Below are positions 30,001-62,340 of a stretch of DNA of 64,000 nt, one piece after another (position 1 is the first letter of the stretch; the number at the start of each line of letters is the position of its first letter). The position numbers and the translations under genes were made by a program. Under the pieces are notes generated by a model that saw only the letters and a list, made by a program, of their open reading frames with translations, made no database searches and was not told where the DNA came from. Origin of the DNA: Diphasiastrum complanatum (taxonomy: Eukaryota; Streptophyta; Lycopodiopsida; Lycopodiales; Lycopodiaceae); assembly GCA_029204225.1 (NCBI GenBank), contig CM055101.1, positions 61,151,340 through 61,215,339 of the forward strand, written 5' to 3'.

Positions 30001-30380
30001 GAGGCAGAGGTAGAGGCAGAGGCAGAGGTAGAGGCAGGGAGAGGGGGGTGGTCCAGAGCCAGGGCACGCAGCAGGGATCCAGAGCACGCAGCAGAGCCAG
30101 GGCCACACCACGACATATGGCTCCCTCCAGTTCCGATTCATCTGCGGACCCATGGGATCTGCAGTCCACAGATTCGGATGATTTATCCTACCATGACTCT
30201 GACGAGCCTTAGTTATATAGTTTTCATTACGTTCATGGAACATCATTGTACCCCTTTTTGGTGCCATGTGGCCCGATATTATATATTATGATGATCCTAT
30301 TCACAGCATTGTCGTGATTCAGTATTGTTCTTTGTGGTTTTAGTTCAGTAACTTCGGTTTTATGGTTTATGATTTATGGT

Positions 30381-37992: not shown

Positions 37993-40790
37993 TTCCTTTG
38001 GCACATTGTTTTTCTCCGGAAAAACAATTATCATATGTTGCCGGCATAGGAGAGTTTTCAATCCTGTCGTGATAGTGATCTTATTGTGAATCTCTATTTT
38101 GCCCTTCTGACATATCCATTGCAGCATCGCAGAATTGTAGTTGTCAGGAACAACTTGTTGAACATATTGGAAATTCAAAGGGTAATAACAGAAAAGTTTA
38201 CTATGTAACGTAGTAGTGTAAGCACATATAGCTTAATACATCAGTAGCAACTATCATGAATAAATTTGTGGGTAGTGGTATGACCTTGCTTACTAAACGG
38301 GTCTGGTTGATTTGATTGTATCCATCTCAATTGCTAAAATTGGCAAGCATGATTGAAATGGCAATGACCAAAATTATGAGGTTAAGCTTTCAGCGAAAAT
38401 TTATGGCTACCAACCATTGGCATTTTCTTGTAAGGATTACTGTGTACAATTTTTGAAAAACATAGTAGTACTTCAACTAATGTATCTGCCCATATGAAAA
38501 GTAGATAATGTTTTGAACATTCTGGTATAGATGGCACCAAGATCAAGATTGCATTATAGATATTAATAATTCCTTATAAGATTAATCTGAAAATTTAAAA
38601 TATGGTCAGAGTATTTGGTGTAGTCATGATGGGGTCACAGCTAAAATTATTGGAGAATAGTCTGAAATTTGTTGTTTCCTAGTGGACCCCCACACCGTTG
38701 CACTTATCTGGAGCCCACTTAACTGAAGCGATGGGATCTCTTGGGCACCCATTTCAGAGGAACAAATCTTTGTAGTCTTGCATGTTATTTTGGTGGATTT
38801 TATTCGCTCCCAAACTAGCGAAACTTGGAACCAATGTTTGACACAAGAACATCTTTCTTGGGTCTATGCATAGACCAACATAGGTTTTTGCAACCTATCC
38901 ATCACAATGCAGTCTAACACATGGGTAGATAAATCGTGATTACAATCCATGACTCTTGTTGGCTAGCCTTTTTGCTCACGCTCATCTGATTGTTCTTCCT
39001 TTAACACGGTCCTGTTTTCCTAGATCTCTTGTGTACCTTCAATATGTTAATTGTCAATGCCATCGACTTCTATCATTGCTACAATAATTGTAGCTAAATT
39101 GTAGCTAGATGCTTGGATATTTTAGTTTGGGCACTTATCTCGCCAAGAAGCTTTAAAGATTCTAGAGCCTACATGGTGATTATTGCTATTGATTCTACTT
39201 TTTCTTGGTCCCTACACTGATGTGAGGTATACTCTGCCTTAGAGATGCTCCCAAGGCTTGCTTACGGTATTCCATCCATAAGGTTTTTTATGCCAGTTGC
39301 TATTCTTCTATGTGGTATAGGCGATATTCAAACTATCTTTTGTTTTATAAGGTTTATTTTTTTATTGCCCGTTATATTTACAATCTTTCCCATCTCATTA
39401 TGACTGATGCACAAACTAGTAGTATGCTAGTTGAGAATTTCTTATCTCAATTTTTTGAGTTCGATCCCACTCATCACACTTATAGAAAAAAGAAGACCAA
39501 AATTACAATTACAATTGTCTCCTTACAGCTTGCTTACATTTTTTTTTATGGAATCATTTTATATATCCTTGCAAACTGCTTAAAGCTGTAATTTTTTGGT
39601 ACTTGAATTTGCCATTATAATACCCCTGTCCACTTGTCTTGATATATAGTATATGGAGACTATTAATTTTGGCCTTCTTCCCAAACAAATTTTCAGGTTG
39701 ACATTCTTGGTCTACAGGTCATCGCTTTTTCTACAGGCAGTCCATAAATAAGGCATTTGAAGGCTTTGAAATATTCAACTCTTCGTGCATTCAAATTTTG
39801 AATTTGTGCCTTGGATATGAATGTCACATTGTCATTCACGAGTTAGGGAAAAAAAGTCAACTACAGGATTATTGGGTGAGTTAGATTTTTTAGGTGTACC
39901 ACATGATTTAAGTTGGACAATTTGATGTGTCGTGTTATATGGATCATGCTTGCTAATTGGCAAGTTGTCATTAATTTTAGCATGGCCCTTTGATTTAACA
40001 CTTCCAATTAAGCTCAATCATTGAGCTTTTCTAGAATTTCAAAGACACTCTAAAATGCTCATCATGCTCCATTAGGAGGGAATACATTATCTCAACCAAA
40101 ATATATCGATGTATGACTAAATTAGGACCTTATGACTCGAGATTATGGTACATGGATTCAATTGTATCCTAGAATTCATGTCAATCTTACTTTCCTAAGT
40201 TTACTTTACAGAGAGATGCTAGCATTCCATACCACGAACACCTATTGCACACTCCAATCTAAGTGCAACTATAGGTAAAACTTACACTAACCAAGTTCAA
40301 GATAAGAAAATATTGTGATCAACAATACTTCATTTTTCATCAATCACGTATAATGGAAATACTAGACAGTTCATCTTGGAAAGACTCCAAACAATAGAGA
40401 GATTTTGACAATAGATGAAAAATCTCAATTTGTTCATGGATGAGACCTCATAGATTATCAGAGTATAGTAATGAAACTCTCTATGATTTATCTGAGAATG
40501 AGACTAGATGACTTTGGATTTAATTATGGTCATATTGATCTAATTGATCAGAGCTCTTATAACTCTCAAATCCATAATGCTAATTGTGACAGATTTTAAT
40601 GACTAAAAATGGTTATTTTATCGAGTTTTAGACAATCTTGTGACTATCATAAGATTATCAAATGAATTTTGTTTCTCTCGAAAGAAGTAACCATTGATTA
40701 ATGACTTTTTATAAAAGTACAATAAAAGCTCAAATGCACATAAGTTTTGGGAGATGACAAAGTCGCCATTCCCAAATTCCCTCCTATACC
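37993..40790. other. Intergenic sequence 3' of G-alpha
   Basis: Contains the G-alpha 3' UTR at its start. No polyadenylation site could be assigned with confidence. No other gene or element recognised. Confidence 0.5.
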
Positions 40791-40799
40791 TTTCAAGCC

Positions 40800-41914
40800 A
40801 AATGATCCAAGAGTAATTATTCTAATGCATTGCCAAAACTTATTAATTTGAGTATCATAAAAAATAATGTCATGAAATAACAACTCTGTCTGATCGAATC
40901 TCCTAAATCTGGTATGGAAAATGAAGAGATTAGCAACTGACTTCCAAAGAGAAGCATAGCAATGGAAAAAAAAGGCGAGCCACATCCTTGTCTACTAATT
41001 TGCATTTTGAACATACATGCATCACATCTCCTCTATAATGAGCACGAACAAGAAAAGAAAGCTATAGAATTCTAAGAGAGAAGACGTTAAGTTTGCTAGT
41101 TTTAATTTTGTGAGTGCGCCTAAATTTGGCTTTCCAAATGTGGGGTGGGTCAAAGAGAACCCATTTAGAATTGAACTAAGAAAAAATGAAATTCGGTTAT
41201 TTGGTGTCAGCAAAAACAGAAGAATAGGAGATTTTCCCAGATTTATCGGCCTTAAGGAGCCAATAACTATCCCGGTCAGATGAGGAAGTGGTCAAAGGCC
41301 CAAGGTCGATAAAGTTGGTTTCACGAGCGGAGAGACCAAAGTCAAATCTGAGGCGAGAAAGACTAAGGGAATAAATGGAATTCATAATATAATCCCATGT
41401 AACAAGGCCCTTGCGTGAAAGGTTACAACAAAGTTTGTTTTCAATCAAAGCAAGAGGTTTGGAATTGATAGTGATCGCTTAAGAGAACCATAATGATTCC
41501 AAAGGGGAGATAGAATTGCCACTAGTCCAAAAAGTGAGATCGTGCGTGGAGAGGAGAACTCTATAGATAGACTTGAAAAGAGGGGGAAGAGAGACAGAGA
41601 ATGATAGAGCAAGTAAATTCTAGGAAGTAGGATTGAGAGCCGTTATCAAGAATAGAAAGAAGGGGGGGGGGGATGGAGGTCATCAGAAGAGTGAGGTTGG
41701 GAGAAATTGGAGTGGATTCGTCTGTAAAGAAGAGAGAGAGTTGTAAAGAGATCAAGAAAACCAAGACCACCAAGTTTCTTAGGAGCAATACTGATATCCC
41801 AGTTGAGAGCTCTTTTCCCTTTAAATTGTTGCAGTTTGGCTCTAATTCCAATTTGCAAAGCAAGGTTTTAAATGATAAAGCCTTTGTTGATGTGTTTGTA
41901 TTAGAAGTTAACAT
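40800..41914 (-). pseudogene. LINE (non-LTR retrotransposon) 3' relic
   Basis: Minus strand: LNWDISIAPKKLGGLGFLDL (41646-41858) is the post-RT motif of plant L1-type LINEs. It is followed downstream by DSYWLLKADKSGKISYSSVF and a zinc-binding zf-RVT-like stretch (CSKCKLVDKDVARLFF). Frames change at least four times. No poly-A tail or target duplication could be set. Confidence 0.7.
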
Positions 41915-42472
41915 GTCCGTAATATTATCATTGCATTCACATCTATTAGAATAGTCTTCATCTATCTCTATATTCTTGTCGGGATAAATAGTCTTCTAAA
42001 CATCATGTATATGTCTCTTTGGTAGAGGCTTAACTGGTCGGGTAAGCTTCCCTTTGTTGCTCATGGACGAAGGAGAATTTATAGCAGTTTGATCCATGTC
42101 TTTGGTTTTAATCTCAAAACGTAATACACTACCCTTATGGTTTTAGGGAGTGCACCCTCAATGTTCAAGATGTTGCCTTAAAGGCCTAGGGCCGACTTCT
42201 CATGGGCTCAAAATGTGATTTATGCCCTTCATTTTAGGGGTATTAGGTTTCTTGAACTACGTAAGATAGGGCTCGTGAGAGAGGTGTCCGACAATAAGGC
42301 CAATACTCATATGATTTCATGCTCATCATTTATTATCGACGATTAGCGTGCATGCATGACAAGGTCGTAAAACAATTGTGGTATTCGACTAGCTTTCAGT
42401 GTTGACTAGTTTTGCTCTGATCAGCGATGGTCAAAATGCGGGACATGAAAATATCTCTACTAGTCAAGGTTA

Positions 42473-42920
42473 AGTGCTTGTCAAATACTATATGAGGCTC
42501 TTTTTTGCGTATCAAGTGCTTGTGGGGTGCAAATTATACACACTGCTCTATTTGATGAGCGACGATATTTCGCAGATCGTCGGGCCTAGGTATTTCGCTA
42601 GACAATTTCGACGACTAATGTGACACTTAGCCCAAAGTGGCGTATTTCGGCCATGTTTGGTAGACTGCTCGCTCTTGTGTTTCAAAGAGGTCAGGTTTTA
42701 TTGACTCAAGCATTCACAAAACATTTCATTTCCAAATACAATATCCACGTTCCTTGAAACTAGATGGATAAAGCAAGAGTTAACTTAGCTTTCAAACTCG
42801 AGAAATTATGACTACGAACAAGCACTTTTCCTACCATAAGCATTGAGCAGAAAAACCATCACAATAATCAGCTAGCACATAACTAGATTTCATATACTAG
42901 AATGCGATATGATGCGATAA
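42473..42920 (+). repeat. Direct repeat copy 1 (pair with 49317-49748)
   Basis: Shares in order TCAAATACTATATG, GCGTATCAAGTGCTT, GGGTGCAAATTATAC, TTTGATGAGCGACGATATTTC, AAACATTTCATTTCCAAATACA and GAATGCGAT with the second copy, same orientation, with scattered differences. The pair lies about 6.8 kb apart and brackets the histone-like gene cluster. It does not start or end with clear TG...CA. Confidence 0.85.
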
Positions 42921-44156
42921 TATGTGGCATTTCTTATAAGGTCTTTTTCTAGTTTGAAACTCTTCTAATGAAGTAGAAACAGACTTTCTTTGACTTCATG
43001 TACTCATGGAAGTTGATACTTCCCATTTTGGTATGGGGGCTCATTAACAAATGCAAGGGTGATTGTACGGTCCCTCTTTGATGGTGCACTCATTGGGGTA
43101 TAGCCTTGGAGATCAACTCCTACTAATCTTGGATAGGTGGTATTTCTCATGTTGTATTTGACCTCCCATGTGCATTTTCCAACTTATGTGTTACCACTGC
43201 ACTCTGCCTTCCCCGTCCTCGGAATTTACACATAAACCATTGTTGTTAATTTCCATTTTCTTGATCCTATCCCATAATTTGCCGGTGTTCTTGTCGAGCT
43301 ATTTCCCATTGTCGGTTTTTCTTGTTTGAATTGTCTTTTTCGTGACTTCCAGGACTTATCATGCCATCGATGTGTGTGTGCATGCATCATAGATCCTGGA
43401 TCAATTTCAGAGAGGTATGATTGACCAGATCTATGTGAGATCATAAATCCATCGGTATCGTAATCTCATAGCCAAGTCCATGACTTAGGATCTCTGTTGC
43501 ACCTCGTTCTCAATCATGTTCAATCTTGTTAACCTATCATTCACATGCCGATCGTAACATTGTGGTATCTCTCAAATTCTAAGTTTTGATCATAATGGAT
43601 CTACATGAAAACCTTAGGTGTAAGCTGTTGGCATCTTTTGATAGAATCTTAACTGTATGGTCTGCTAAGTGATGTCCACCATGATTGGAAGCTAAATCTT
43701 GAGCTAGAAGAGATCTAAGACCATTTGAGATTGCCTACTAATAAGATCCAATCAAGTACTGGGAGGAAAGATGTCGAATCGATCTTAATCTCACAAATTT
43801 TTGTCGATCCAATCAAGCATCATCGATATGAAATTTTTTCTTTTCTTTTCCAGTGCTTTACCCATGGGCAATAAAGTCACTCCCCTCCCCGCTGCAATGT
43901 TTTCATTCTCCAACATGCTCCTATGTCACACTCATGTCTACAAGACTAGAACCAGATGATGCCCAATGGACTTGAGAGTATATGCAAAATGCACGGATAT
44001 GGATGGAACCATTCAAGCTTGCAACAAATGTTTCAAACATACTGTGTGGGTGCAATGATGGTGGGTGCAAATGATTTTGACTACCGAATCAACTGATTCT
44101 TGCACTTCAAAAAGAGTTAGTGCATATATGATCAACTTTCATTTCTAGGAATACCT
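42921..44156. other. Unassigned sequence
   Basis: No gene or element recognised between the repeat copy and the next open frame. Confidence 0.5.
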
Positions 44157-44698
44157 TTGATAGGTTTTCTTTTGAGTACTATCCTATTGGTTCTTATAAG
44201 TTTCGAGGGGAATGACCTTGTGTTACCCTATGAGAGAGTCATTTCTTCTACCCCTAGTACTGATCTAAAGTCTGGCCTGTCTTCACTGGTAGTGGACTCG
44301 AAATCATCCTCACTACTAGATATTTTCTCACATTCAAATTCAAGTATGGGTGTTCTTTTTAATTGGGGTACTTCTGGGTAGCCATCTACCACTACGTGTT
44401 CTCGGCCTCGCCCAAAGATGAGTACTTCGGCAGGGATATCTACGATGCAAAAGTCTGAGCCAAGGTCGGCCTAGCAACATAGAATATCCTCTGTTCCTCG
44501 CATTCAAAACAAAAAAAAAAAATTGAGATTATATACAATGATGCAGTTTTGACATGTGTTGAGGTGGAAGAGGATTGGAGCCTAAATTACATCAGGCATG
44601 AACTATTGCTTCTACAAGATGATATACTTTCAAACTTCAGATTCATTTGCAATGGTAAACTCGTCAGTAACTACAAACACTCGATTTTTTATAAATAG
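44157..44698 (+). pseudogene. Possible gene with a ubiquitin-like C-terminal domain
   Basis: Ser/Thr-rich frame from 44157 (ends TAG 44379-44381, reopening in the same frame), then after an A-run at 44511-44522 the frame shifts. The new frame reads IEIIYNDAVLTCVEVEEDWS, then LNYIRHELLLL and FRFICNGKLVS, stopping at 44698. The pattern of strand-strand-helix-strand with FxFxxxGxxV resembles a beta-grasp (ubiquitin-like) fold. I do not recognise the family, and linkage of the two parts is inferred. Confidence 0.4.
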
Positions 44699-44748
44699 TT
44701 TCTTTCAAAACTTTCTCATACAATCTCTATACTAATTGTAACTCACTT

Positions 44749-44930
44749 TGTATTAGATTTACGTAGGTATGTAAAAGACATAAGCTCAAGATCAAATGTA
44801 GAGATATTGGCGAACAATCCAACTATATCTACAACGACTTGTAAATTGTACCACTCAAAAAAGACCTTTGTATTGTACAGAACGAACCATGCACAACTAA
44901 AAGCATTCCTTTGTTGTACACATTGCATAT
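44749..44930 (-). pseudogene. Exon resembling the Ulp1/C48 protease catalytic-Cys segment
   Basis: The minus strand reads QQRNAFSCAWFVLYNTKVFF, with the Q-x5-C arrangement (oxyanion Gln and catalytic Cys) of Ulp1/adenain-type proteases, then a tail ending at a good donor (gtgagt) at 44748-44743. The acceptor side is unclear. A second, related segment lies at about 50475-50585. It is probably the downstream exon of the gene starting at 46340. The motif is short, so the call is tentative. Confidence 0.42.
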
Positions 44931-45029
44931 ATTGAACAAAAATTAGTAATATTATGACATAAAATTTATTCATGCTATGACGATAGATTTAAACTAGAAA
45001 AAATAGATGCATATTAGAGATAAATTGTA

Positions 45030-45190
45030 TATACCTTGAGAGATTTAATGGTTATCTCTCCAATCGAGGTTGTCGTTGTCGGTATTTCATGAACGGCCTC
45101 ATGAAGTAGAGAATCAAATTCTCCATGTGTATTATCAGTTGAGTTTAGTTTTACACATAGAAAATTTGATACTCGTGTTAATCATCCAAA
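45030..45190 (-). pseudogene. Likely exon: putative Asp segment of the Ulp1-like domain
   Basis: The minus strand is open as FLCVKLNSTDNTHGEFDSLL, then HEAVHEI..., ending at a donor gtatat near 45036. FDSLL fits the catalytic Asp region (DSL) of Ulp1-type proteases. The upstream exon ends YFIPYEN, which fits the strand before the catalytic His; the expected HW dipeptide is not visible at the junction. The exon phases do not match perfectly. Confidence 0.33.
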
Positions 45191-45220
45191 TAAAACGCAA
45201 CAAAAGCAAACTAACAATCC

Positions 45221-46340
45221 TTACTTATTCTCATATGGAATGAAATAAAATTTTGCCACGGGACTGTAGTCGATGAAATATACAGCCTTTTCAAATGTGG
45301 CCTCTTTTGCCTTCACTGCAGCCATGAAAAATGGACTGACAACAAAAACAACTTCTTGGGAATCCAAACTAATACTATGCTGCAAAAAATTTCCACCGGC
45401 ATCTACAATAATATGTGTAATCTCTGAAGTTTTATCTTTCAACTCTATACAAAATTTGGGACCTAATCTATAGCTTCTATTTGAATCTGGAAGAAAAAAA
45501 TCAGAATAATTGCTGAGCAGATCAATTTTATTAGCTAAATAAGTCTCGTATTGGTTATAATGGTCAGAATCAAAATAAACTGGGTTAGGATCATATGGAG
45601 TTCTGACAAAAAGATTATGTGCAGGAAGAGAAAGAGATGTAGACACAATATTTACAGATTTTTTAGTTATTTTGTCAAGCTCTTCTTGGGTTATCATCAC
45701 TTTCAGTGAAGAAACCTTCTGAGGAGCTAGACGAGTAACATGAGGAGGAGAGGATGATTCTACGTCTGAATCCGATTCTCCAACATCTGATTCAGAGCTC
45801 AGGAAGATGCGGGGTCTCTTGCCAAGGATAACTATAGGAGGAAGGGACGCAACTGGCCTTCGAGATCCAGCTTTCTTAGGGACAACCTGCTTCCTTTTCT
45901 TCCTTGAGGTAGTTGTCAAGTCTGATCTATCCAGAGGCAGGTCTCTGGAGGTGCTGGCGTTATCCACATGTTAACAAGCTCGTAGTTTTTTGAGAAAAAC
46001 GAAATCCTTGGGAATGATGGTAACACGCTTACCATGCACGACCAAAAGACAAGAATCCTCAAAAAACTGGGACAGAAAATCTTCTGCAGCACTCTATAAA
46101 GCCTGCATGGCTGTCACGGCAAAACGAACATCAAGTCCAAGTGACATGGTGGCATTCCTAACAGATTGGCCGAAAGGAGTTCTAGGGATCAACAATTCAG
46201 TTGATCTCTGGAGTTTTTTTTATCTCCCTCAGCCAGACCTGCTTTTTGCCACGTCTACGACCAGTACTAGGGAAAACACGGGCACAGGAGTGCTGTACAG
46301 AAGTAATGGCAAGGGTAGTGGATTTCGTCATAGCCATCAT
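45221..46340 (-). pseudogene. Divergent histone H3-fold gene with a long in-frame C-terminal extension
   Basis: From ATG 46340-46338 the tail reads MAMTKSTTL..., unlike the canonical ARTKQTARKS. The H3 core follows: LREIKK, STELLIP, RFAVTAMQAL, SAAEDFLSQFFEDSCLL, HGKRVTIIPKDF, LKKLRAC. Loop 1 has the canonical length, without the CENH3 insertion. Defects: a frame change just before STELLIP (about 46203-46207), TAG at 46094-46096 where H3 has Gln (ALQ), and TAA at 45971-45973 after the core. Beyond the TAA the same frame is open to 45221: a basic stretch (SRKKRKQVVPKK), an acidic Ser stretch (SSESDVGESDSDVESSS), then about 150 residues ending FYFIPYEN at a donor (GTAAGG). Thus the H3 fold is apparently the N-terminal domain of a larger protein, not a free histone. 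Confidence 0.75.
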
Positions 46341-47247
46341 TCTAAGATACAAAAAAAGTAAATTTGAAAAAAAGCCTCTGATTTAAATATCAAAACAAAG
46401 TACAGAGAATGAAAACAAAAAAATTTGCGAAAGAGAGATGTTTGAAATCAATACCAGGACTAAATATTGGTTTCGAACACATGAATACAAGAGAAAAAAA
46501 AGAGGAACGAAGTTCTGCGCTTGAAAGCAATATCGATTATATCGCAGTATTGGTCTCGAACGCGGGGAGTGCTAGCGGAATTGAAACGTACAAAGAGCGT
46601 GCTTGCGATCAATATCGAGAGTCAAAAACGAGAAATTTGCGAGGAAAAATAAAAATTCGGTGGGGGTATTTAAAAAAAATTTGCACGTGTGAAAAATGGC
46701 TGCGAACACGTGGCATCATGTAATTGGTCCATGTGTATTGTCCGTACAGGTCATTATGATGCAATAATGAGGCCACGTGGGGGTCATACACGTGCACGAA
46801 TCAAAATACGATACATGTCATTCTGCACGTGACAAATGTCAGATCAATCATTCTTTGTACGACAGAATATTTTCGACAAATCACGCAACGACACATGTTC
46901 TTTCGGACCTCATTCACACGTGCAAATTTCTTTTATAAATTCGTCATTTTCGACACATATTTTCACAAAAAATTTCTGATTTCTGCGCCGGATATCGATT
47001 TCAAGCGCACACTTGCCACTGCTTCGCATCTGTTTATACATTTGCGCCTTGAACCGATACTGCCTGCTCCGATATCGCTCTCAAGCGCGTCTTGTTGATT
47101 TCCTGTTTTTCCACTCATGCTCGGATCTGATATTCGGTTTTCTGATATCTCGTTCGAGCGCATAGGGCATTGTAGTTTTGTTTTAACTTGCATTTTGCGT
47201 TTGAGTCCGATATTCAAAATCTTTCTTTTGGTATTTTTTTTGTTGAA
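46341..47247. promoter_or_regulatory. Divergent promoter with G-boxes and ten iterated motifs
   Basis: It lies between the start codons of the minus-strand H3-like gene and the plus-strand gene at 47248. Six CACGTG G-boxes sit in the middle (46684, 46707, 46774, 46789, 46826, 46917). On each side are five copies of a ~17-bp motif close to ATATCGATTTCAAGCGC. Forward copies are at 46464, 46548, 46992, 47072 and 47145; reverse copies at 46441, 46517, 46597, 47044 and 47197. TTTATAAATT at about 46932 (+) and TTTAAATACC (−, about 46665-46675) could be TATA boxes. The repeats would then lie in both 5' leaders. Confidence 0.65.
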
Positions 47248-48051
47248 ATGTCTGATTTCGATTCTAGTCTGCTATCTTTTTTTCATGAATATAGAGTATT
47301 TCAAATCTTTTTGTTTTTTCTTTTTGTTCTTCCTTCTATTACTGAGGGTCCTGGTGTGAAAGCATTTTTTGAGATTTATCTCAGATTTAAGTCTCTACTC
47401 AGTACTCCCTTGTTCAGATCTCTAAATAAGGACATAATTCATTATCAGGACCTGGTGACACTTGATAAGAGCTATAAAGCTAAGCTTGAAAGAATGTTCA
47501 CCAAGTTACATAATGATTTCAAGTATATAGATGATTGTCTAATTCATAATAAAAAATGTAGATTTGTAGGGTTTCAGTTTGCATTTTTTTTTTTTGGTTA
47601 AATATTTCTGATGATTCGGAAGCTGGCCCTTCTACTTCTGAAGCTGCTTTTTCCAGCGGTACAAAATCTGAAAAGTCAAAGACTATAGATATAGAAACGT
47701 TTTTTTATTGATACGAGCGTTAGTTTAGATGATTGTATAGATTTTGATAATAATGAGATAAGTGTTGCCCATTCAAAGTTTCATCAACGTGGTGATACAA
47801 TGATTATGACAATCAAGACACTTTCTCATTTTCTTGGAGGACATAATTTTAATAGGGTGCATAAAATAATTTTTGTTAGGAAAAATATTGCACTTAAGAT
47901 TTTAGAATATGGTCCAGTGAATTCCATGCTTAGATCATCTCATTTTGCATTGTATGCAGCCTACGTTGATCTGAGTGAGCATGAAAACTATGAGCTCTTG
48001 GATCCTTACGAGATAAGAAAATTGTTGCATGATTCTAAATTGCAACTTTAA
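47248..48051 (+). pseudogene. Unknown protein, partner of the divergent promoter
   Basis: ATG at 47248 (MSDFDSSLLSFFHEY...). The frame is open to about 47600, then shifts at a T-run (47585-47597) and again at a T-run near 47700-47706. After the second shift it is open to TAA at 48051. Parts: a hydrophobic stretch near residue 20, a helical Lys-rich segment (DKSYKAKLERMFTKLHNDFK), an acidic Ser linker (SDDSEAGPSTSEAAFSSG), and a C-terminal ~100-residue domain (KTLSHFLGGHNFNRVHKIIF, ...DPYEIRKLLHDSKLQL). I do not recognise the family. The hydrophobic stretch LFFLFVL could instead be an intron. Confidence 0.5.
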
Positions 48052-48250
48052 TTAGAGAAAGTGTCGAAAGTAGAGTAGATATTGAATAACCAAACTTTGT
48101 AAAATTTTCATTTAATATACAAAATCTCTCTGTGTGTCTATCGCCTATTTGCTTGTATAAATTTGCATGCTTTTTGAAATTTTTTATAATTCGTCAACTT
48201 TGTGTTATGATGAATTTGGATTCTTTTGTAAAACCATTGGAAAAATTGCA

Positions 48251-48722
48251 CTATATAGTTGTTCTTTGTGCTAGTCCCGCCATGTTATGTACTTTTATGA
48301 AATGCCGCTCTTGCTTGCCAATGAGGTTTTTCCATTTCTTACGATGACCATATGCTAAGACTTCTACTATTTCTTGCAAAGAATGTCGAATGATGCCGTA
48401 ATATGTGCTGCATGTCATAAAAACAAAATACAAATCAGTACCAAAAGCATGTAAATTAATTGCACATATTTGTCTATACTAGTGCAACATCAAAATCTTA
48501 CCATATAATGAGTTATATGATCTAAACCCCATGCACTTCAAACTGCATCCACAAATTCACTGGTTGTTTTCTGTATCATTTGTACATCAGTATTTGAATA
48601 TTTATCTTTTCTGAAGTCTTCCACCATGTTGTCTAATTTTCTCCAAACATCTACTTTGTGTACACGAGTAGAACCTTCTTTTTCGAAATCTTGAGTTGCG
48701 CTATTATGTCTTTCCAAACCGA
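48251..48722 (-). pseudogene. Unknown two-exon gene fragment
   Basis: The minus strand has a coding-like exon at about 48722-48502 (VDVWRKLDNMVEDFRKDKYS, then QKTTSEFVDAV, a TGA, SAWGLDHITHYM) ending at a donor gtaag. A second segment at 48407-48251 follows an acceptor atgcag (IIRHSLQEIVEVLAYGHRKK...NMAGLAQRTTI, stop). Phases across the intron do not match exactly, suggesting an indel. No family recognised. It converges with the plus-strand gene ending at 48051. Confidence 0.4.
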
Positions 48723-49316
48723 GTATTGAATCTTGGATTGTTTGCTAGAATAATTTGATGAAAATCTACGAGCTTTGAATCCTCCAATGCTCGGCTTGCA
48801 TGGAATATTTCATGTTTTACCTGATAGCTTGTCGTCTTTTTTTTTAATGTGGCCTTTATGTAAGCCTTCTTTAGACAACACATCCTCTAATATGGAAATA
48901 GCTATGTCTCTGGCTCGAAATTATCCACATGAAGATGATAAAGCTTTGTCATCAGTACAATAGTATAGTAACAAACAACACAATGACAATAACAAAGTTG
49001 GAGATGGCGTTCGACCCTGGAGATAGAGATGGCGTAGGCTTTGTTTCTGAAATGTCACTCCTAATTCAAATTTTTGAGTGTTCCCAACTATTGGGAGGGA
49101 ATATTTCGGCATTTTGAAAATCATACTTTAACTGTGGTTAAGCACCAGTGAAGTTTGAAGTGACTAAAATAAGGTGCATTCATTTACATGGAAAGTAGTG
49201 CGAGCAGATGCGTAAAGAAGTTAGAAAATATCCCTTTATTGTTATTTTTCACTCTCCTACATGGCATTTTTTATAGGGCCCTCTTTGGGCCCATATTTTC
49301 TCTAATGCAAGGTTTA
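48723..49316. other. Unassigned sequence
   Basis: No recognised feature; may include upstream exons of the preceding minus-strand fragment. Confidence 0.4.
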
Positions 49317-49748
49317 GTGCTCGTCAAATACTATATGGGTCTCAAAAATGTTTTGTTGCGTATCAAGTGCTTTGTCGGGTGCAAATTATACGCACCGCTC
49401 TGTTTGATGAGCGACGATATTTCATAGACCGTCAGGCCTAGGTTTTTTGCTAGACATTTCTGACATCGGGTGTGACTAGTGCGACCAAATATAGTAGTCT
49501 TCCCGCTCTTGTGTTTCAAAGAGGTCGGGTTTATCGACTCAATCATTCACGAAACATTTCATTTCCAAATACAGTATCAACATTCCTTGAAATTAGATGG
49601 ATAAAGGAAGTGCTAACTTAGCTTTCAAACTCAAGAAATTATGACTACAAACAAGCTCTTTTTCTACCATAAGCATTGAGCGGAAAAACCATCACAATAG
49701 TCATCCAACACATAGCTCGATTCCCTATACTAGAATGCGATGCGATGC
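49317..49748 (+). repeat. Direct repeat copy 2 (pair with 42473-42920)
   Basis: Same word order as copy 1, same orientation, moderately diverged. Ends with GAATGCGATGCGATG where copy 1 has GAATGCGATATGATGCG. Confidence 0.85.
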
Positions 49749-51976: not shown

Positions 51977-52676
51977 TGTGAAGTACTGTACTTTAGGACC
52001 ATAAATGGATCTACAAAAGATCCACAAGAGTGATTGGATGCTTGCTTAACAATCTATCAAAAAACTAGACACAAAAAAGTTGATCCAGATTGGCAATTTG
52101 ACAAACAACAAGTATTAACAATCAAAAGCATTGATAAACATTGAAATCCGAGCCCACACGTGTGTACTACAGGCTGTAGTACGGCCTTCAACCTGAGAAA
52201 CAAGTAGAAATTGATTTGGTTTCGTTTGGATCACAGAAACTCAATGTACATAGTGAACTAGCTTGAGATTGCCAATGAGCTCCAAAAATTTTCTATCTTC
52301 TCACTATGGAGAGAGGGAATACATAGCAAATTCGACTTCCTTCTTGAAGTTAGGTGGATTTTCAGCATGTAATAAGGAAGTTAACTCACTCTCCTTGACC
52401 TAAAATGAAACCCTAGTCTATTTCCTAGAGTTATGCTTGGTAGGTAGCTAGTTGGTCAAATTTTCACCTTAAACTTCGGTGTAGGTCCTATAAAGTAGGG
52501 ATGACCACCAAATAGACATGACCAACTCTCTTGACTTGACCTAACCTACATTAGGATGGGTTTCACATGTGGCATCATGGCCTCACATGTGTGGGACCCA
52601 CTTGTGTACACAATTTACACTATTCTACATGGTTTTTGATCAAGCTAGATTTGCCAATTTTTGGCAATTCTTCACA
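51977..52676 (-). repeat. 3' LTR of young Copia
   Basis: In plus coordinates starts TGTGAAGTACTG and ends ATTCTTCACA. Contains palindromic CACACGTGTG and several CACATGTG words, potential bHLH/bZIP sites. Confidence 0.93.
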
Positions 52677-53156
52677 CTCCTCCTCAAATTTAGCTTGATC
52701 TATTTACAACTCTCTTGATAGATCAATGAAAGCTTTTAAAAGTGTCTAAAAAATCCAGCTACAAAGAAGGAACTTTTGAGACTCCAATAGAAAATGATGT
52801 CCATGAAGGATCTTTCACCACCTCTTAGAGGATCCCTTACAAGATGTTCCATAAATGTGTCTATATACATGTAGCACACTTCAAAACTAAACATCATGCC
52901 AAGCCATGGATTCCAAGGCATTATGTGCACTTGAAGATACATCAATTAAAATATTAAGTGCATAAATAATGTTGCCAAAGACAACTTGCCTTGCTTGATC
53001 CATATGATTGAACCTTGATGGCTCCATCTTGATACTCAAGATTCTTCTTGGAGTCCTCGGGTCTTGAGCTTGCTCCTCCACTTGACTTGACTCCAAACCA
53101 TCAATGAATTGAATAAGGTGTTGATCCAAAGGTGCTTCTTCAAGTTTACAAATCTT

Positions 53157-53477
53157 TCACTCTTGAAAGATCACATTTCCACCATTGACAAATTCTTTGG
53201 CTGAAAACAAGTAGATTCTACAATCTCTACTTGAAGAGCAAAACACTACCATTATTCCTATCATTGAAATAGGATAATCTTTGGTCCTTACATTGGAATG
53301 ATCACGCACAAAGCATGTGGACACAAATATTTCCAAAGCAAATGATGTTTCATCTTTTATGACTCTATTCAAACTATTACAAAAATAGTTATCCAATGAA
53401 ATTGCTTTATCAACAACAAATGTAGATTTCAAAGCATCCCATTTCATTGTCTTGTCATACAAAGTAATAAACACCAT
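53157..53477 (-). pseudogene. Integrase C-terminal scrap
   Basis: The frame ends RIYLFSAKEFVNGGNVIFQE, the conserved end of Copia integrase (…SRDVIFxE). The catalytic core of integrase and all of RT-RNase H are absent, showing where the internal deletion lies. Confidence 0.6.
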
Positions 53478-55062
53478 GGATAGATAAGAAACAAGTCACC
53501 TCATGTCTACTACTACTTTCCAAAAAGTATTCAAAGATAGTAGACTCTCCAATGCTCACCACCCTTGCAAGATGCACACTTGAATGGACAATTTGCATGC
53601 AATTTGATGACTCGGCCATTGTCATTGAGGACTCCCTTGGAACTCTCATGCTTTGAGACTGATCCTCAAGATCTTCTTCCTTTTGATGCTCCTCCTCAAT
53701 GCAAGCAAAATCACACTTTGCCAAGATCTCCTCTTGAGTGATCTCCTCCTTTGCCAAGCTCATTCTTTCAAAAGCAACACTAGCTTCCAACTTAAACAAT
53801 CTTCCATGTTTAAATCCCTTTGCAATGCAAACATCATTCTTCAAGATGAAGCAAACACCATGCTTAAAGTGGACATCCAAACCACTTTCTAAGAGTAGAC
53901 CAACACTAAGCATATTCTTGGTGATTGATGGTACATAAAGGACATTTTCTAGATCCATGCATTTTGAGGATTCTAGACACAAAGATATGGTGCCAACACC
54001 ATCTATCCTACACTCTTCATCATTTGCAATAAAGACAAACTTTTTAGCATCATTGAATGAGTGTAAGGTTGAGAAAAAGTCCTTTTCACAAGACATGTGG
54101 GAGCTAGCCCCACTGTCGATCCACCAATTGTCTCTTGAATTGCTATTGCTTGTTGGTGAGGATGTAGATGCCATCAAGAATACATCTACTTCATCCTCCT
54201 CCTCCTCCTTTGCAAGGTTTCCTTGTTTGTCCTCCTCCACTTGTGCTCTTAGCCTCTTGTAGCATTCAGATGCATAATGCCCCTTCTTTCCACAAAAGAA
54301 GCATTTTTGCTTTGACTTGTCCTTTGAGCTTGATGCATCATCCTCTTCTTTGGCCTCCTTTGGATGCTTCTTCTTTCCATTGGTCTTCTTTTTGCCCTTG
54401 AATGAGAAATTGGCTTTCTCATCACCATCCTGCAACGACAAGGAACTCATCCGAGATTTTGCATGGAGCATCCTACACTCTTCAGCCACTAATACACTAT
54501 GAAGTTTTTCTATAGTTGGCAAAGTGTCTTGGATGGCAAAACTTTGGACCAAATTTGCAAAGTCATCTCCTAGACCATTAAGGACAATTTGTACAAGCTC
54601 TCCATCATGAATCTTCTCTCCAATGGAAGCCAACTCCCTACTTAGAGACTTGATTCTGAGTACATAATCCTGTGCACTCTCCTCACTTCTCCTCATGCTT
54701 TGCAAAATTTGATTTCTAAGCATAAGAACTCTAGAAGTGTTGCTAGACTCATAGATTGATTTTAAAGACTCCCAAGCCTCTTTAGCATTAGTACAAGCTG
54801 ATACTTCTCTCAACAAATCATTGCTCACATTCATCTTCACACAATGAAGTGCAAGCCTAGATCTCTTCTTGTATCTAGCTAACTCCTGTGCACCTAGAGG
54901 TTCATCTTCATCTTCAATCAAGAACTCATAAAGGTCTTGGAGCACCAATAGTGACTCCATTCTAACCTTCCAAATAGCATAATTTGTAGAATTCAACCTC
55001 TCACTAGCTTCTAGAAGGTATGCTCCAGCAGATCCCATCTTACTAGTGACTTCTACAAACAA
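53455..55062 (-). CDS. Copia gag-protease polyprotein, intact frame
   Basis: 535 codons, open throughout. The likely true start is the Met at residue 9 (MGSAGAYLLEAS). Order: the gag N-terminal domain (LNSTNYAIWKVRMESLL; LALHCVKMNVSNDLL; the UBN2-type gag fold), a Lys-rich stretch, a CCHC zinc knuckle (CFFCGKKGHYASEC) at about residue 265, an aspartic protease site WWIDSGASSHMS at about residue 315, LYVPSITKNMLSVGLL, and the pre-integrase GRLFKLE motif. After about residue 445 the sequence is unlike Copia. Gag forms the particle and packages RNA; the protease frees it. With RT missing, mobility would need enzymes supplied by another element. Confidence 0.9.
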   Translation of the reverse strand: MFVEVTSKMGSAGAYLLEASERLNSTNYAIWKVRMESLLVLQDLYEFLIEDEDEPLGAQELARYKKRSRLALHCVKMNVSNDLLREVSACTNAKEAWESLKSIYESSNTSRVLMLRNQILQSMRRSEESAQDYVLRIKSLSRELASIGEKIHDGELVQIVLNGLGDDFANLVQSFAIQDTLPTIEKLHSVLVAEECRMLHAKSRMSSLSLQDGDEKANFSFKGKKKTNGKKKHPKEAKEEDDASSSKDKSKQKCFFCGKKGHYASECYKRLRAQVEEDKQGNLAKEEEEDEVDVFLMASTSSPTSNSNSRDNWWIDSGASSHMSCEKDFFSTLHSFNDAKKFVFIANDEECRIDGVGTISLCLESSKCMDLENVLYVPSITKNMLSVGLLLESGLDVHFKHGVCFILKNDVCIAKGFKHGRLFKLEASVAFERMSLAKEEITQEEILAKCDFACIEEEHQKEEDLEDQSQSMRVPRESSMTMAESSNCMQIVHSSVHLARVVSIGESTIFEYFLESSSRHEVTCFLSIHGVYYFV

Positions 55063-55843
55063 GAAATAGATTTGATTGACTTGAAACTCACAAAGGTCTC
55101 ACACTTGCAGTGTTTCACTCAAATTTGATTTCTAATCCAACAAATGGACTTATAATCACAGTTCTATCACTCCCTCACAAAGCTGGAATGAGGATAAGAT
55201 GAAGTGAAAACTACTTTCAAACAAATCTTGCCAAGAAATGGATTTGATTGTCTCTAGAAACTCACTAAGGTCTCTCTCTTGTAGTTTTTCACTCAAATTA
55301 GATTTTTAATCCAACAAATGGACTTATAATCTCAGTTCTAGCACTCCCTCACAAAGTTGGAATGAAGATAAGATGATGTGAAATCTACTTACAATCAAAT
55401 CTTGCCAATTTTGGCTATTTTTGGACAAAAAAATGACTTAATCTCTTTCTTCCTTCTTAGTGTACTTTCAAGACCTGTTTTTAACCTTAATAGGACTTGA
55501 ACTCAGCCTAGATTAATTAGATTCCATGAAACAAATTCAAATCTAATCAATGGCAAATGATCTTGGTAGATTATCCTAGGATCTCCGCCAAAAATTACAC
55601 CAATAGCTCACAAATTGAATTTTTTTGGATCAAATGAACACCATGCATTAAATGTAGGTTCAGAGGTGCCCACACATGTGGACAGTACAGATTTGGACCC
55701 CTACCAAGTTTGGGATCAAATCTCCTCACCAAAATCAAGATTCTAGCTTGCCCTCTCAAGACTAGTTTTTAGCACCAAAACTTGCTAAAAATGGATTTGC
55801 ATTAGATCAATGGCTTATGCTCTTGTACTTGGCTCTGATACCA

Positions 55844-56544
55844 TGTGAAAGTACTGTACTTTAGGACCATAAATGGATCTACAAAAGATCCACAAGAATG
55901 ATTGGATGCTTGCTTAACAATCTATCAAAAAACTAGACACAAAAAAGTTGATCTAGATTGGCAATTTGACAAACAACAAGTATTAACAATCAAAAGCATT
56001 GATAAACATTGAAATACGAGCCCACACGTGTGTACTACAGGCTGTAGTACGGCCTTCAACCTGAGAAACAAGTAGAAATTGATTTGGTTTCGTTTGGATC
56101 ACAGAAACTCAATGTACATAGTGAACTAGCTTGAGATTGCCAATGAGCTCCAAAAATTTTCTATCTTCTCACTATGGAGAGAGGGAATACATAGCAAATT
56201 CGACTTCCTTCTTGAAGTTAGGTGGATTTCCAGCATGTAATAAGGAAGTTAACTCACTCTCCTTGACCTAAAATGAAACCCTAGTCTATTTCCTAGAGTT
56301 ATGCTTGGTAGGTAGCTAGTTGGTCAAATTTTCACCTTAAACTTAGGTGTAGGTCCTATAAAGTAGGGATGACCACCAAATAGACATGACCAACTCTCTT
56401 GACTTTACCTAACCTACATTAGGATGGGTTTCCCATGTGGCATCATGGCCTCACATGTGTGGGACCCACTTGTGTACACAATTTACACTATTCTACATGG
56501 TTTTTGATCAAGCTAGATTTGCCAATTTTTGGCAATTCTTCACA
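55844..56544 (-). repeat. 5' LTR of young Copia
   Basis: Starts TGTGAAAGTACTG, ends ATTCTTCACA. Next to the primer-binding site on its left side. Confidence 0.93.
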
Positions 56545-58059: not shown

Positions 58060-58064
58060 GCAAA

Positions 58065-58884
58065 TGTTGAATTTCACACGTGTGGACTGTCCACTACATG
58101 TACTTGTGATCTCCTAAGGTGTGTAGATGCACCAAGATCAAGACTAGATTGAGATTCAAGATCAATCTTGAATCCTATGGCAAAAACACACTACTACATG
58201 CATTCAATCACTTCCAACTTTCACTCACACGTGTGGAAAGTGTTCCAAAAGTATTCTAAGTAAAAACAAGCTGCCCTCCTTGGGTAGAGAGAGAAAAACC
58301 ATCATGAGGTCTCGGGTAGAGAGAGAAAGCTAGAAATTCAATGACACTCAAAATCCACTCAATCTCAAAATCAATTAGATCCAAAAGGAGGAGTACAATG
58401 ATACTAATAGATTCATGAGCTACCACTATGCTTAACTATGATTGGATCACACTTTGCCACCTCTTAATCCTATTGGACCATTGATCCATGCACCTCTAAA
58501 TTCTATTGGACTATATTCAAGCACACCTCAATTTTCTATTGGACCTCGCAAGGTTCCACCTCTAAATCCTATTGGACCTCTTAAACTTCATCAAACAAAT
58601 GCATGACACTTGTCTACACTCTAATTGGCACAAGTTTGGCTCTATTTTGGCTCAATATTGGCATTACAAGTGGAAATGGATAATTTGCCATCTATGCCAA
58701 ATTTGACCCTATCAACATCCTACACCTAAATGCTTGACTATGAAATTCTATGAGACCCCTATATCAAACATTTCGATTTACTTTACAATTCTCCACACGT
58801 GGGAACATCCTCCACACATGTGAGATTCACTTACAAACTTCTATCATAAAAAATACCAAGCTAGATATTTGCCAATTTCTCACA
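58065..58884 (-). repeat. 3' LTR of second young Copia (820 bp)
   Basis: Starts TGTTGAATTTCACACGTG and ends TTTCTCACA. Rich in CACACGTGTG, CACGTGGG and CACATGTG words. Confidence 0.93.
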
Positions 58885-59010
58885 CTCCTCCTCAAAAAAT
58901 AGCTTGGAAAGGTACTAGATCACTTGAGAAGTTTGTAAATCTTTTTGAGTGGATCCTTTGGTATGCATAAGAAGTGAAGATCAGCCAAGGGATCCATCAT
59001 AGCAGCACCC

Positions 59011-60375
59011 TCACCATATCCATGATAAGATCTCTTTGGTAGAGATCTCTTGCCAATGCCTTTGAAGAGTGCTCCACCAATATGCCACTATTATCATGGG
59101 ATTCCTCCATGCTTGATGATGATCTTTGCCTTGAAAGTTCCACTTGCATGATGGATGCACCATAAATAGAGAAATCTGAGTCTTCCAAGCCTCATAAGGA
59201 TTATGGAGATCAAGATCATAAGATGTGAAACAATGATGATTATCAAGATTATGCTTTCTAGCTTGACTAGTCCACATACAATGAACTATATCCATGATGG
59301 ATCTAATCTTGATATCAAAGAATATCTTGATCTTATTTAGGCTAGTTACTCTCTCAAGGATGTAAGTGTCCACTTTGGATGCTTCACTTAATCTCAAGAG
59401 GAGTTTACAATTTGCCTCAAAACATGTGAAAACATGATTTTCAAAAAAGTGAGTACCAAGCTCAATCTTGTTCTTACTAGAACCAAGAGCATACTTTTGA
59501 CAATACAATATCTTGCTTTCAAAAAGTATTGAAAACACATCTAAGTCAATAATGACAAGAAACATGTCCATACCATAAGCATCATACAAAACTAGTATAG
59601 CTTTTCTTGAACTTTGAGATCCAAAAAATTCAATGAAGCAAGATAGCATTTCAAGCAAAGGAAGAGAAGCATATATGAATGTGTTGTAGTAGATACAACA
59701 TGAAAGATGCCCCTCTTTGCCATATAAGGTGAGCCATAAAGACTCGGCCATGCATCTTGAAGATCTTCTTGAAATCATATGAAGAAGAAACTCCTCCTCA
59801 CACATTGGCCCCATCATAACTTGAATACCTTCAAAAAGGATAACTTGTGATGCTTCTTGAGAGGCCTTGATCTCGGCCACTTCCAAGATTGAATCTTCAT
59901 GCAATATGACATCTCTATTCACGATCACATTTGAAATAGAGAGTGTAAAGACACTAAAGGCCTCCTTGATGGATGAGTATCCAATCATGATCCATGAGCT
60001 TGGATCATCCTTCCTTCTTGTTGCCAAGGGAATATGTGCAAAGCAAGCACTACCAAGTTCACTAAGGTGATCAACCTTAGGCTTCATCTTGAATAAAACT
60101 TTATATGGTGCTATTCCTTCAAGAGCTCCAATACTCCTCAAAGCTTTGATCTTCAATGATAATTTCTTCTCAACATATGCTTTGAATAATAAGGAATAAT
60201 CATACACCATAATACTTGAAGAGAGAAGATATGTGCATCTTGTGTAATCCTCCTCCTTTGAAATATTGGAAATATAAGAAACATCAAGAGAGTTTGCACA
60301 CTCACTTGGATCCAATTTGTAGATGCCTTCAAATCTTGATCCATATGCAAGGATCTCACCATCCTTCTTAATCAC
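59011..60375 (-). pseudogene. Copia pre-integrase joined to integrase end, with unknown tail
   Basis: A frame of 454 codons continuing gag after a one-base shift. It begins VIKKDGEILAYGSRFEGIYK (pre-integrase). It then passes to APYKVLFKMKPKVDHLSELG and SWIMIGYSSIKEAFSVFTLS to VNRDVILHED, the integrase C-terminal region. The integrase catalytic core between them is missing. The ~270 residues after that match no Copia domain I know (ISRRSSRCMAESLWLTLYGK...), yet the frame stays open. Confidence 0.75.
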
Positions 60376-61583
60376 ACAATTGTCAATATGAAATTGACAT
60401 CAAAGCCACTATCAAGAAGTTGGCCAACACTTAAGATGTTCTTTGTAAGCTTTGGGACAAAAAGAACATTGTTGAGAAAGAGATCTTTAGAAGATGCAAG
60501 CTTCAAGGGAATAATCCCTACTCCTTCAATATTGCACTCATGCTTACTTGCAAAGTATATGGTCTTCTTGACTCCATCATAAGGCATAATAGATGAAAAA
60601 AAGTGCTTGGAGCCACACATATGTGAAGATGCTCCACTATCAATATACCATGAGTCATCCTTGTTGAAGGTGGAAGATAAGAAGCTTGATGCCATAAGAG
60701 AGCCTTCTCCATCACTTGCAATATAGTCTTCTTTCTCATTGGTGATGTTGGCTTGATTGAGTTGATTCTTCTTCTTGAAGCAATTGGTGGCATAATGGCC
60801 TTTCTTGCCACAATAAAAGCACTTGATCATCTTCTTCTTGTGATTTGAATTAGAAGCATGAGAGGTATTCTCCTCCTCTCCATCTTGGTCTTTAGCTTTG
60901 TCATTAGAGAAGTGATGGTGTTGCTTCTTACTCCTCTCTTTGTGCTTGGCAAATAGAACTTTGCCATCATCATGATTGAGTGATAGCTTGTCCATCCTCA
61001 AGAGTTTGTACTCTTGTCTTGATTCTTCATAAATAAGCACACTTTGAAGGGCCTCCAAACTTGGTAGCTCCTCCTTAATAGCATAGGATTGGACAAGGTT
61101 GTCATATTCATCTCTCAAGCCATTGAGAATGACTTGGACTAGCTCACTTTGATTGATTGAGTCACCAATACATGCAAGCTCCCTATGAATATCCTTGACT
61201 CTCAAAACATAATTAGATGCACTCTCATCACTCTTTTGACTACTTTGGAATATTTTATTTCTAAGAGTGAGGAGCCTAGAGGTGTTCTTCGCCTCATAGA
61301 TGGACTTGAGACAATCCCAAGCTTCCTTGGATGTAGAACAATCACCAATCTACCTCAATATCTCATTAGAGACATTCATCTTAATGTAGTGGAGAGCCAT
61401 CCTAGCTCTCTTCTTGTATTTTTGTACTTCTTGAAGGACTTGAGGCTCCTCCTCAATCCCAAGTACAATGTCCATCACATCTTGGAGTATCAAGATGGAC
61501 TCCATCCTCAACTTCCATATTGAATAATTGGAAGTAGACAATCTCTCACTTGGTTGCAACAAGTATGAACTCATTGAAGTCAT
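60372..61583 (-). pseudogene. Copia gag-protease, one stop and one frameshift
   Basis: From MTSMSSYLLQPSERLSTSNY the gag domain parallels the 53455-55062 protein. A single in-frame TAG at 61350-61352 follows NVSNEILR. Then come LVQVILNGLRDEYDNLVQSY, a CCHC knuckle (CFYCGKKGHYATNC), protease SWYIDSGASSHMCG and LFVPKLTKNILSVGQLL. The frame breaks near 60385, where one base appears missing from a T-run before the pre-integrase motif. Confidence 0.9.
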
Positions 61584-62340
61584 GTAAAGTGGAGATAAAT
61601 AAAAGTGATGAACAAAAAATGTTGCTTCTCTCTCACTATAGGATCCAATAATGGTGTGCTACCATCTCCTATGCAAGATCTTGCAACAAACTGTGAGATG
61701 ATTCTCACTAGCTATCTCAATCTCTCCAAAACTAGATCTACTTCACATCAAATGATGGAGTATGGGAAAAGTTAGGATCAAACACTCTTAGCACGTGTGA
61801 AATACACTAAAAAACCAAAATTGACTCAAATACAATGATATTGCATGAAACAAAATGGCTAAGATCTCAAAACAGTGCCTAGATCACATATAGATGAGAT
61901 TGGTAAGCATTCAACTGTGATTCTGGATCAAACAAGCAATCTTTTGACCAAACCAAATGTGTCCACCCAGGTCTAGGTGCCCTACCTAACCCTCTTCAAA
62001 AGCTTATAACTTTTGATTGGCTCAACCAAATGGAATGAAACTGATTGCATCAGAAACTAGACAAAAATAGCTTCAAAACAAGCTATCTAGCAAGATTTTT
62101 GGATCAAACATGAAAGAGAACTCCCAAACTGAAATCGGATGTTCCTCACACGTGTCTGAGCACCTGATTTCGTACAGTACCAGGTCAGACCCAATCAATG
62201 TCCTTTTGATCTCTTTTGATCCAAAATTGAACAAGATAGCTAGGAAAATGGGCCTTGACAATTTCTAGCTCAAGATTGATGAATAGTTTTCACTCAAATG
62301 GATCAAAATGCATGGTAACCTTAGGTAGGCTTTGATACCA

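Follow-up and report, generated by a model that had tools for sequence, protein, structure and literature searches.

A decayed histone H3 fusion gene in Diphasiastrum complanatum, probable cargo of a DNA transposon with a RAG1-fold transposase

How does a histone H3 fold come to stand at the front of a larger protein, and what kind of gene encodes such a fusion? The question is raised by positions 45221-46340 of a 64,000-nucleotide stretch of the Diphasiastrum complanatum genome (contig CM055101.1, positions 61,151,340 to 61,215,339, assembly GCA_029204225.1), referred to here as the window. The original prediction, made from the sequence, placed at this site an H3-like gene whose frame continues past a stop codon, could not assign it to a familiar gene type, and offered three origins: cargo of an undescribed mobile element, a DNA-virus insertion, or a decayed host gene. 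The best overall explanation, to which we give a probability of about 85%, is that the locus is a decayed H3-extension fusion gene of a family of DNA transposons that have terminal inverted repeats (TIRs) and a transposase, T, with the predicted fold of RAG1, an enzyme of the human immune system.

The fusion gene in the window and its relatives

The minus strand at 45221-46340 carries a decayed histone H3 gene with one frameshift, one TAG and one TAA. Its parts are listed below, where types A and W are two of the families of relatives found in the same genome, W being the window's own.

46340-46200, minus strand: N-terminal piece of H3, MMAMTKSTTLAITS...RRRGKKQVWLREIKK, in a single frame
46200..46340, minus strand: start of this piece, MMAMTKSTTLA.., for which the equivalent in copy L039 is MMARTKSTARA
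46219-46097, minus strand: first part of the H3 core, KKLQRSTELLIPRTPFGQSVRN...MQAL, in a frame that differs from that of the N-terminal piece
46096-46094, minus strand: in-frame TAG in the H3 core
46093-45974, minus strand: second part of the H3 core, SAAEDFLSQFFEDSCLLVVHGKRVTIIPKDFVFLKKLRAC
45974..46219, minus strand: H3 histone-fold core as a whole, with PF00125 on both pieces and 55% identity to type A over 121 columns
45973-45971, minus strand: TAA between H3 and extension
45221..45970, minus strand: C-terminal extension of the H3 fusion, an open frame of 248 codons from 45970 to 45224 that ends ..IPYENK
44825..45174, minus strand: probable further exon of the fusion, with 86% DNA identity to another window-type copy and 37.5% identity over 48 amino acids to type A

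The Pfam Histone family (PF00125) matches the two core pieces independently and at adjoining profile positions, 43-83 (E 0.0031, under the curated cut-off) and 85-115 (E 3.5e-7, over the cut-off), with no Pfam match to the N-terminal piece of the window H3. The H3-like gene that had been proposed here is therefore real, as is the 248-codon open frame that had been described after the TAA. The motifs on which the original prediction relied (LREIKK, STELLIP, FEDSCLL and HGKRVTIIPKD) are all present, but a frameshift in a T-rich run near 46215, which had been overlooked, puts LREIKK out of frame with STELLIP and the others; the transposase and the TIRs were likewise absent from that account. The “stop” of the extension frame coincides with a donor-like sequence, GTAAGG.

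A search of the genome with the histone family (1.74 Gb, 5176 contigs; best 150 scored of 6325 candidates) yielded 153 matches, and the 150 listed comprise 13 near-canonical H3s, 134 divergent H3s (E 1.6e-28 to 3.7e-24 among the matches listed) and 3 partial ones. As the same genome holds many divergent relatives, the match of the window H3 is not due to chance. Twenty of the 134 listed divergent loci were fetched, picked for long open frames, and they fall into 7 copies of type A and 13 of type B (PF00125 match E 8.8e-28 and 6.7e-29, respectively). Because all loci were selected by histone match and open frame, the sample is biased toward conserved copies.

H3 and extension lie in one open frame across the joint in all seven type A copies, five of which are free of stops to a shared C-terminus, ..KYLVIPYHTK; the exceptions are L022, interrupted by a TA repeat, and L028, interrupted by a late frameshift and a stop at tail residue 5. 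When the two parts of the window gene were searched separately by profile, the core matched PF00125 and the 248-codon product matched the profile of the type A extension with 52.7 bits. In type W, the subfamily of the window itself, the extension is present in at least 150 copies at 69-100% identity, the window included (best 150 scored of 5619 candidates), and 36 of the 150 matches listed, again including the window, are stop-free by a count made by eye. Among six type W copies picked for long open frames, five have H3 and extension in one frame of 366-427 amino acids and the sixth starts in the middle of the H3 core. The fusion proteins of types A and W can be aligned end to end. Type B is built differently: in place of the C-terminal extension of types A and W it has a long insert that separates an ARTKQTAR tail from the H3 fold.

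The joint being open in 7/7 type A and 5/6 window-type copies, the fusion is real, and the paralogues bear out the proposal of an H3 fold at the N-terminus of a larger protein: the two parts stay joined where the stop codons are missing, and no examined intact paralogue had its H3 ending at the TAA. As the frame is open in these relatives and types A and W align throughout, the TAA, TAG and frameshift of the window are the result of decay, and the window copy is a fossil of a real H3-extension fusion gene. One type A element is represented by a 2.1-kb piece (L009) that has little besides the H3 fusion gene and does not match the part of other copies that encodes T.

The extension consists of a basic stretch, an acidic serine-rich stretch and a conserved C-terminal part. 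Compared with the protein database it gave 428 candidates, none with an E up to 1, and a structure model built from the single sequence had a pLDDT of 36. A search for relatives of the fusion gave 34 hits, of which eight were examined as full sequences. The two best, proteins from Nymphaea and Actinidia, were rejected as relatives in spite of their E-values, each being a pair of canonical H3 genes that gene prediction had joined, and P0022 was rejected since its C-terminus is not matched by the extension profile and it is closer to CENH3. P0022 (391 amino acids, from a sequence archive) is itself a CENH3-like H3, with MARTKQTMRK as its tail, a long loop 1 and, at the C-terminus, a long extension that does not match the window's.

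The transposon and its transposase

The H3 fusion gene belongs to a family of TIR DNA transposons with the gene order TIR-T-X-H3-Y-TIR, an order common to types A and B. An H3 of this sort is carried by three transposon families of the genome, namely type A, the window type and type B. The inverted repeat that terminates type A is 35 bp long, CATTAGAGGAGTTCTCAATATCAAAAAGACCCTTT, with no difference between the two ends of copy L023, and type B has CATTAGGGCCCTTTTTGGACTCAAAAAGGGCC at both ends. The TIR starts with CATTAG in types A and B and at the window end, in contrast to the CAC of RAG and Transib. Pieces of all four genes can be identified in the window, where the following parts of the element and its surroundings accompany the H3 gene.

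49235..49307, minus strand: 5' TIR of the element in the window, with its outer end at 49307 and a local alignment score of 68 against the type A 5' end
48219..48902, minus strand: decayed C-terminal half of T, matched by tblastn to T exons from the C11 element at 52-64% identity (lowest E 7e-26) and to T of type B at 26-43%
47188..48033, plus strand, opposite to H3: gene X, tblastn 39% (47341-47562) and 49% (47743-48033, E 8e-27) identity to X of the C11 element
44546..44743, plus strand: C-terminal part of gene Y, 57% identity over 42 amino acids to Y of the C11 element and 86% DNA identity (44579-44743) to a window-type copy
42917..42970, minus strand: second TIR-like end in the same orientation, weak (score 43 against a null maximum of 41)
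42465..42915, no strand assigned: left flanking direct repeat, 81.5% identical to the right copy over 460 columns
49308..49748, no strand assigned: right flanking direct repeat, starting immediately after the 5' TIR

The null for the TIR scores is the best of 50 shuffled controls, 41, obtained with the 3'-end query on 40001-46000. The 3' end of the window element was not found, and the TIR-like end at 42917..42970 belongs either to a neighbouring related element or to a rearranged end. The direct repeats that had been reported around the cluster are real (42465-42915 and 49308-49748). They were considered as LTRs and rejected as such: the right copy starts directly after a TIR, and the pair does not bound the element as LTRs would. 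One repeat lies inside the TIR-like end on the left (42465-42970) and the other just outside the 5' TIR on the right (49235-49748).

In the whole genome, at least 10 of the 51 best places for T lie within 10 kb of a listed H3 place, where 0.08 would be expected. One window-type copy, read over 10.5 kb, has no T, which counts against the preferred explanation. Target site duplications of 2-12 bases were sought in the six copies with both ends read and none was found in 6/6, one copy having a 2-base match; neither the 5-bp duplication of RAG and Transib nor the 8-bp duplication of hAT elements occurs in these six. In type B, the half that contains T is inverted relative to copy L016 in 7 of 12 other loci, so that L016 itself looks rearranged, and the other five loci had no match to the L016 T half within the stretch compared. 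The inverted T-bearing half of L016/L030 (joined stretch 6224-10787) leaves a TIR in mid-element.

T is a transposase with the predicted fold and the active-site layout of RAG1 and Transib. In a fold search with the AlphaFold model of a T homologue, P0044, matches to RAG1 and Transib were far above all others, and no hAT transposase fold was among the structure-search rows shown. The model has a mean pLDDT of 69.9 but is uncertain at 774-828 (pLDDT below 50), the region of the third catalytic residue. The order of motifs, D-D-CxxC-HxxxxH-E, is that of RAG1 and Transib, with near-identical spacing to RAG1. The full D, D, E and C2-H2 zinc set was found in the host copy and in 2/29 homologues (P0043 and P0044). 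The E was located in four homologues, including P0050, which has a different H-E spacing, and P0060, in which a regular expression found no H pair. Both D1 and D2 were found in 20/29 homologues, many of which are fragments, and the distance from D2 to CxxC is 19-20 in 17/29.

Sequence profiles gave a different picture, as a profile of 25 T sequences found no RAG1 or Transib chain among PDB sequences up to E 10, and a Pfam scan of the 25 members produced chance-level matches (best E 0.009, in one member) and no hAT family. It is thus predicted fold and motif layout alone that link T to RAG1. This discrepancy, together with a TIR start and target sites unlike those of RAG and Transib and the broken state of the window copy, is counted against the preferred explanation. 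The relatives of T in the set P0035-P0060 represent clusters of up to 62 member sequences at 90% identity, an indication that this family of transposases moves in further organisms as well; the only organism named among them is a fern. Pattern searches gave 61 matches in IMG/VR and 12 in prokaryote genomes, none of which was confirmed as a relative of T. Gene X had no Pfam match at E 0.01, and in the pieces of X and Y that were scanned there was no Pfam match and no kelch or PHD partner was recognised.

Elsewhere in the window there are two copia-type LTR retrotransposons. One, at 51981-56148, is young, with 300-bp repeats at 51981 and 55849 that are 99% identical and with gag and Pol_BBD in the open reading frame 53455-55062; the second, at 58064-62639, has 99% identical repeats at 58064 and 62340 and gag, zinc knuckle and Pol_BBD in 60372-61205. 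A perfect 383-bp tandem duplication occupies 21109-21876. Dense overlapping open frames fill both strands of 26672-30267, with a 39-bp tandem repeat at 27026-27191, and the two frames scanned in this region had no Pfam match.

The character of the H3 and the explanations for its presence

In the tree, type A, type B and window H3s fall into a single clade (bootstrap 83), within which type A and the window group together (97), and a single capture is accordingly likely. Seven near-duplicate rows (L001, P0008, P0009, P0011, P0028, L020 and L021) were excluded from this tree, and the window was the sole representative of type W. Like canonical plant H3, these proteins have the H3 fold, and seven transposon cores are 49-57% identical to the canonical H3 of the host. 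Residues H113, R116, T118 and D123 belong to the H3-H3 interface and the DNA contacts of the histone. H113 and D123 are kept in 18/18 type B and W cores (13 B, 5 W), and in the alignment of type A they occur in 7/7 and 6/7 copies, respectively, with N in place of D123 in L018; R116 and T118 are present in the B and W cores, but the pattern by which those cores were picked required both. Loop 1 has the canonical length in the window and in type B, as had been stated, and is one residue longer in type A.

Other features set these proteins apart from canonical plant H3, among them P-R in place of R63-K64, a long extension (types A and W) or insert (type B), and the existence of many transposon-borne copies. 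The tail differs as well. Of the N-termini, 25 are readable (7 from type A, 13 from type B, 4 from type W and that of the window; two W copies are unreadable). Every one has lysine at position 4, whereas position 9 is lysine in none of them, being D or G in types A and B and A in type W; K4 was not required in the pattern by which these termini were counted. The exact sequence ARTKQTAR is found in 6/13 type B copies. Inspection by eye of the printed type A, B and W proteins found no ARKS, in agreement with the description of the tail in the original prediction. The canonical H3 of the host has Ala31, Tyr41, Ser87 and Leu90 in 8/8 copies read (L001-L008) of the 13 near-canonical places; for comparison, a published report has Phe41 of H3.1 first appearing in ferns (PMC5809374). 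The host residues thus point to a lineage that diverged ahead of the ferns, and with a fern as the sole organism named among the relatives of T, a seed-free host such as a lycophyte is likely.

For the H3 part, dN/dS is 0.29 in type A and 0.55 in type W, compared with 0.62 and 0.82 for the extension (5 copies and 10 pairs each). The histone part is thus constrained and the extension weakly so, and the extension values count against the preferred explanation. Tentatively, at a likelihood well short of even, the fusion H3 would pair with H4 and enter nucleosomes on the element's own DNA. Methylation of H3K9 and H3K27 silences plant transposons, and K4 is linked with active marks. As the tail lacks K9 and ARKS, nucleosomes of this kind could not carry the silencing methylation and may resist the silencing marks of the host. 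The extension would recruit T, X or Y, and the retained K4 tail, together with the extension, may serve activation or the recruitment of T. The selected function would be either escape from silencing or the guidance of T.

Guidance can also be framed as an explanation in itself, with the H3 fusion acting as a cofactor of T in the place of RAG2, marking or binding nucleosomes at the target or donor and bringing T to them through the extension. The predicted RAG1 fold of T and the retained K4-bearing tail point this way, as does the failure of Pfam to recognise a kelch or PHD partner in the pieces of X and Y scanned. Against it, X or Y may yet be a RAG2-like partner and the insertion flanks that were read show no common target by eye, and we regard the idea as rather unlikely. 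Somewhat more credit, though still doubtful, is due to the view that the H3 was captured once by transduplication and is merely carried, with no function for the element. Many copies in this genome hold stops, the extension of the window type has the dN/dS of 0.82 given above, and the H3s captured by fungal hAT elements are described as passengers in one report, with hundreds of inactivated copies in Pseudocercospora fijiensis (PMC6710886). A mere passenger does not fit well with the retention of H3 beside the same neighbours in three diverged families, with a tail pattern common to all three or with the dN/dS of 0.29 in type A.

Descent from CENH3, which would direct insertion to centromeres, appears improbable. 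The stretches LLIPRAPF, AAEDYL and KDF resemble plant CENH3, and the tree places the transposon H3s beside the Arabidopsis CENH3 used as reference and P0022. That branch, however, has a support of 28, canonical H3 gives all seven transposon cores a higher score than does the CENH3 reference, and loop 1, canonical in the window and in type B, argues against it, in line with the view in the original prediction that this is not an obvious CENH3. A CENH3 query returned canonical and transposon H3s from the host genome and no CENH3. An endogenous DNA virus with a histone of its own, as in some viruses, is very improbable. The element is large, with terminal inverted repeats and several genes that have no known family, but its sole recognised enzyme is the predicted RAG1-fold transposase, no relative of T was confirmed in viral contigs, and Pfam scans of the element genes gave no capsid or polymerase family and no viral family at a significant score (baculovirus Ac75 appeared in 2/25 T members at E 0.12). 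Of the three origins proposed at the outset, the cargo of an undescribed mobile element is thus supported by the TIRs, the transposase and at least 150 copies, and decay applies to this copy, whereas the DNA-virus insertion is not upheld.

Known histone-bearing elements and what this family would mean

The remark that the gene type was unfamiliar needs correcting, as H3 genes inside hAT transposons have been published from fungi (PMC3538342, PMC6710886). The first of these reports describes a 5.6-kb hAT element of Pyrenophora tritici-repentis in which an H3-like gene, H3L, accompanies a transposase and an ORF of unknown function; there are transcripts of H3L (PMC3538342). In Pseudocercospora fijiensis and its relatives, an hAT element amplified H3 to hundreds of copies that are inactivated except for the original gene, and that report regards captured H3s as passengers or transduplications, mostly inactivated (PMC6710886). 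As described there, the fungal elements share with ours the character of multi-copy TIR DNA transposons with a transposase, an extra gene of unknown function and an H3-like gene. They differ in having an hAT transposase rather than one with a predicted RAG1 fold, and fungal rather than plant hosts. Their H3 is described, in the text accessible, as an H3-like protein with one mention of a “chimeric protein”, whereas here H3 is fused to a conserved partner domain. The copies in P. fijiensis are inactivated. Here, by comparison, three diverged families have H3, T, X and Y in common.

Transposon-borne H3 is therefore already known from fungal hAT elements, and the novelty here lies in the host being a plant, in a transposase with the RAG1 fold, in the domain fused to H3 and in a tail pattern, K4 kept and K9 lost, that the families have in common. 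The open-access literature, to which the search was confined, held no report of a transposon-borne H3 from a plant, none beside a RAG1-like transposase and none fused to a conserved partner domain. With RAG1 and ProtoRAG the family shares the predicted fold of T, its D-D-E and CxxC...HxxxxH zinc layout and the form of a multi-gene TIR element. Published features of RAG-like transposons include a 5'-CAC TIR, a 5-bp target site duplication and a RAG2-like gene (PMC7204232). The present elements have CATTAG, no 5-bp duplication in 6/6 copies, no RAG2-like gene that was recognised, and H3 aboard; from Transib they differ in TIR, in target site duplication and in the failure of the T profile to find a Transib chain. 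Transib, moreover, is a single-gene element. Viral histones such as bracovirus H4 and the Marseillevirus doublets are likewise cases of selfish elements that encode a histone with extra sequence, but in the present case a TIR transposon is the carrier and the histone is an H3 joined to an unrelated domain.

That unrelated transposons have repeatedly taken up H3 is compatible with chance capture and with recurrent benefit alike. The proposal we put forward, speculative and with the odds against it, is of a kind of transposon whose standard gene set includes a nucleosome component of its own, an H3 without the silencing lysines, so that the element would write its own chromatin, which the host could not mark and T would recognise. 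This would be an alternative to the reading of H3K4 by RAG2. If it is true, then, taken with the fungal hAT H3s, transposons have taken up H3 more than once and to the same end. A RAG1-fold transposase in a multi-gene plant element bears on the origin of the RAG machinery, and the shared tail pattern makes the idea of silencing escape directly testable. Should the H3 prove functional, it would mean that silencing is being attacked by a transposon at the nucleosome itself, and in a second kingdom.
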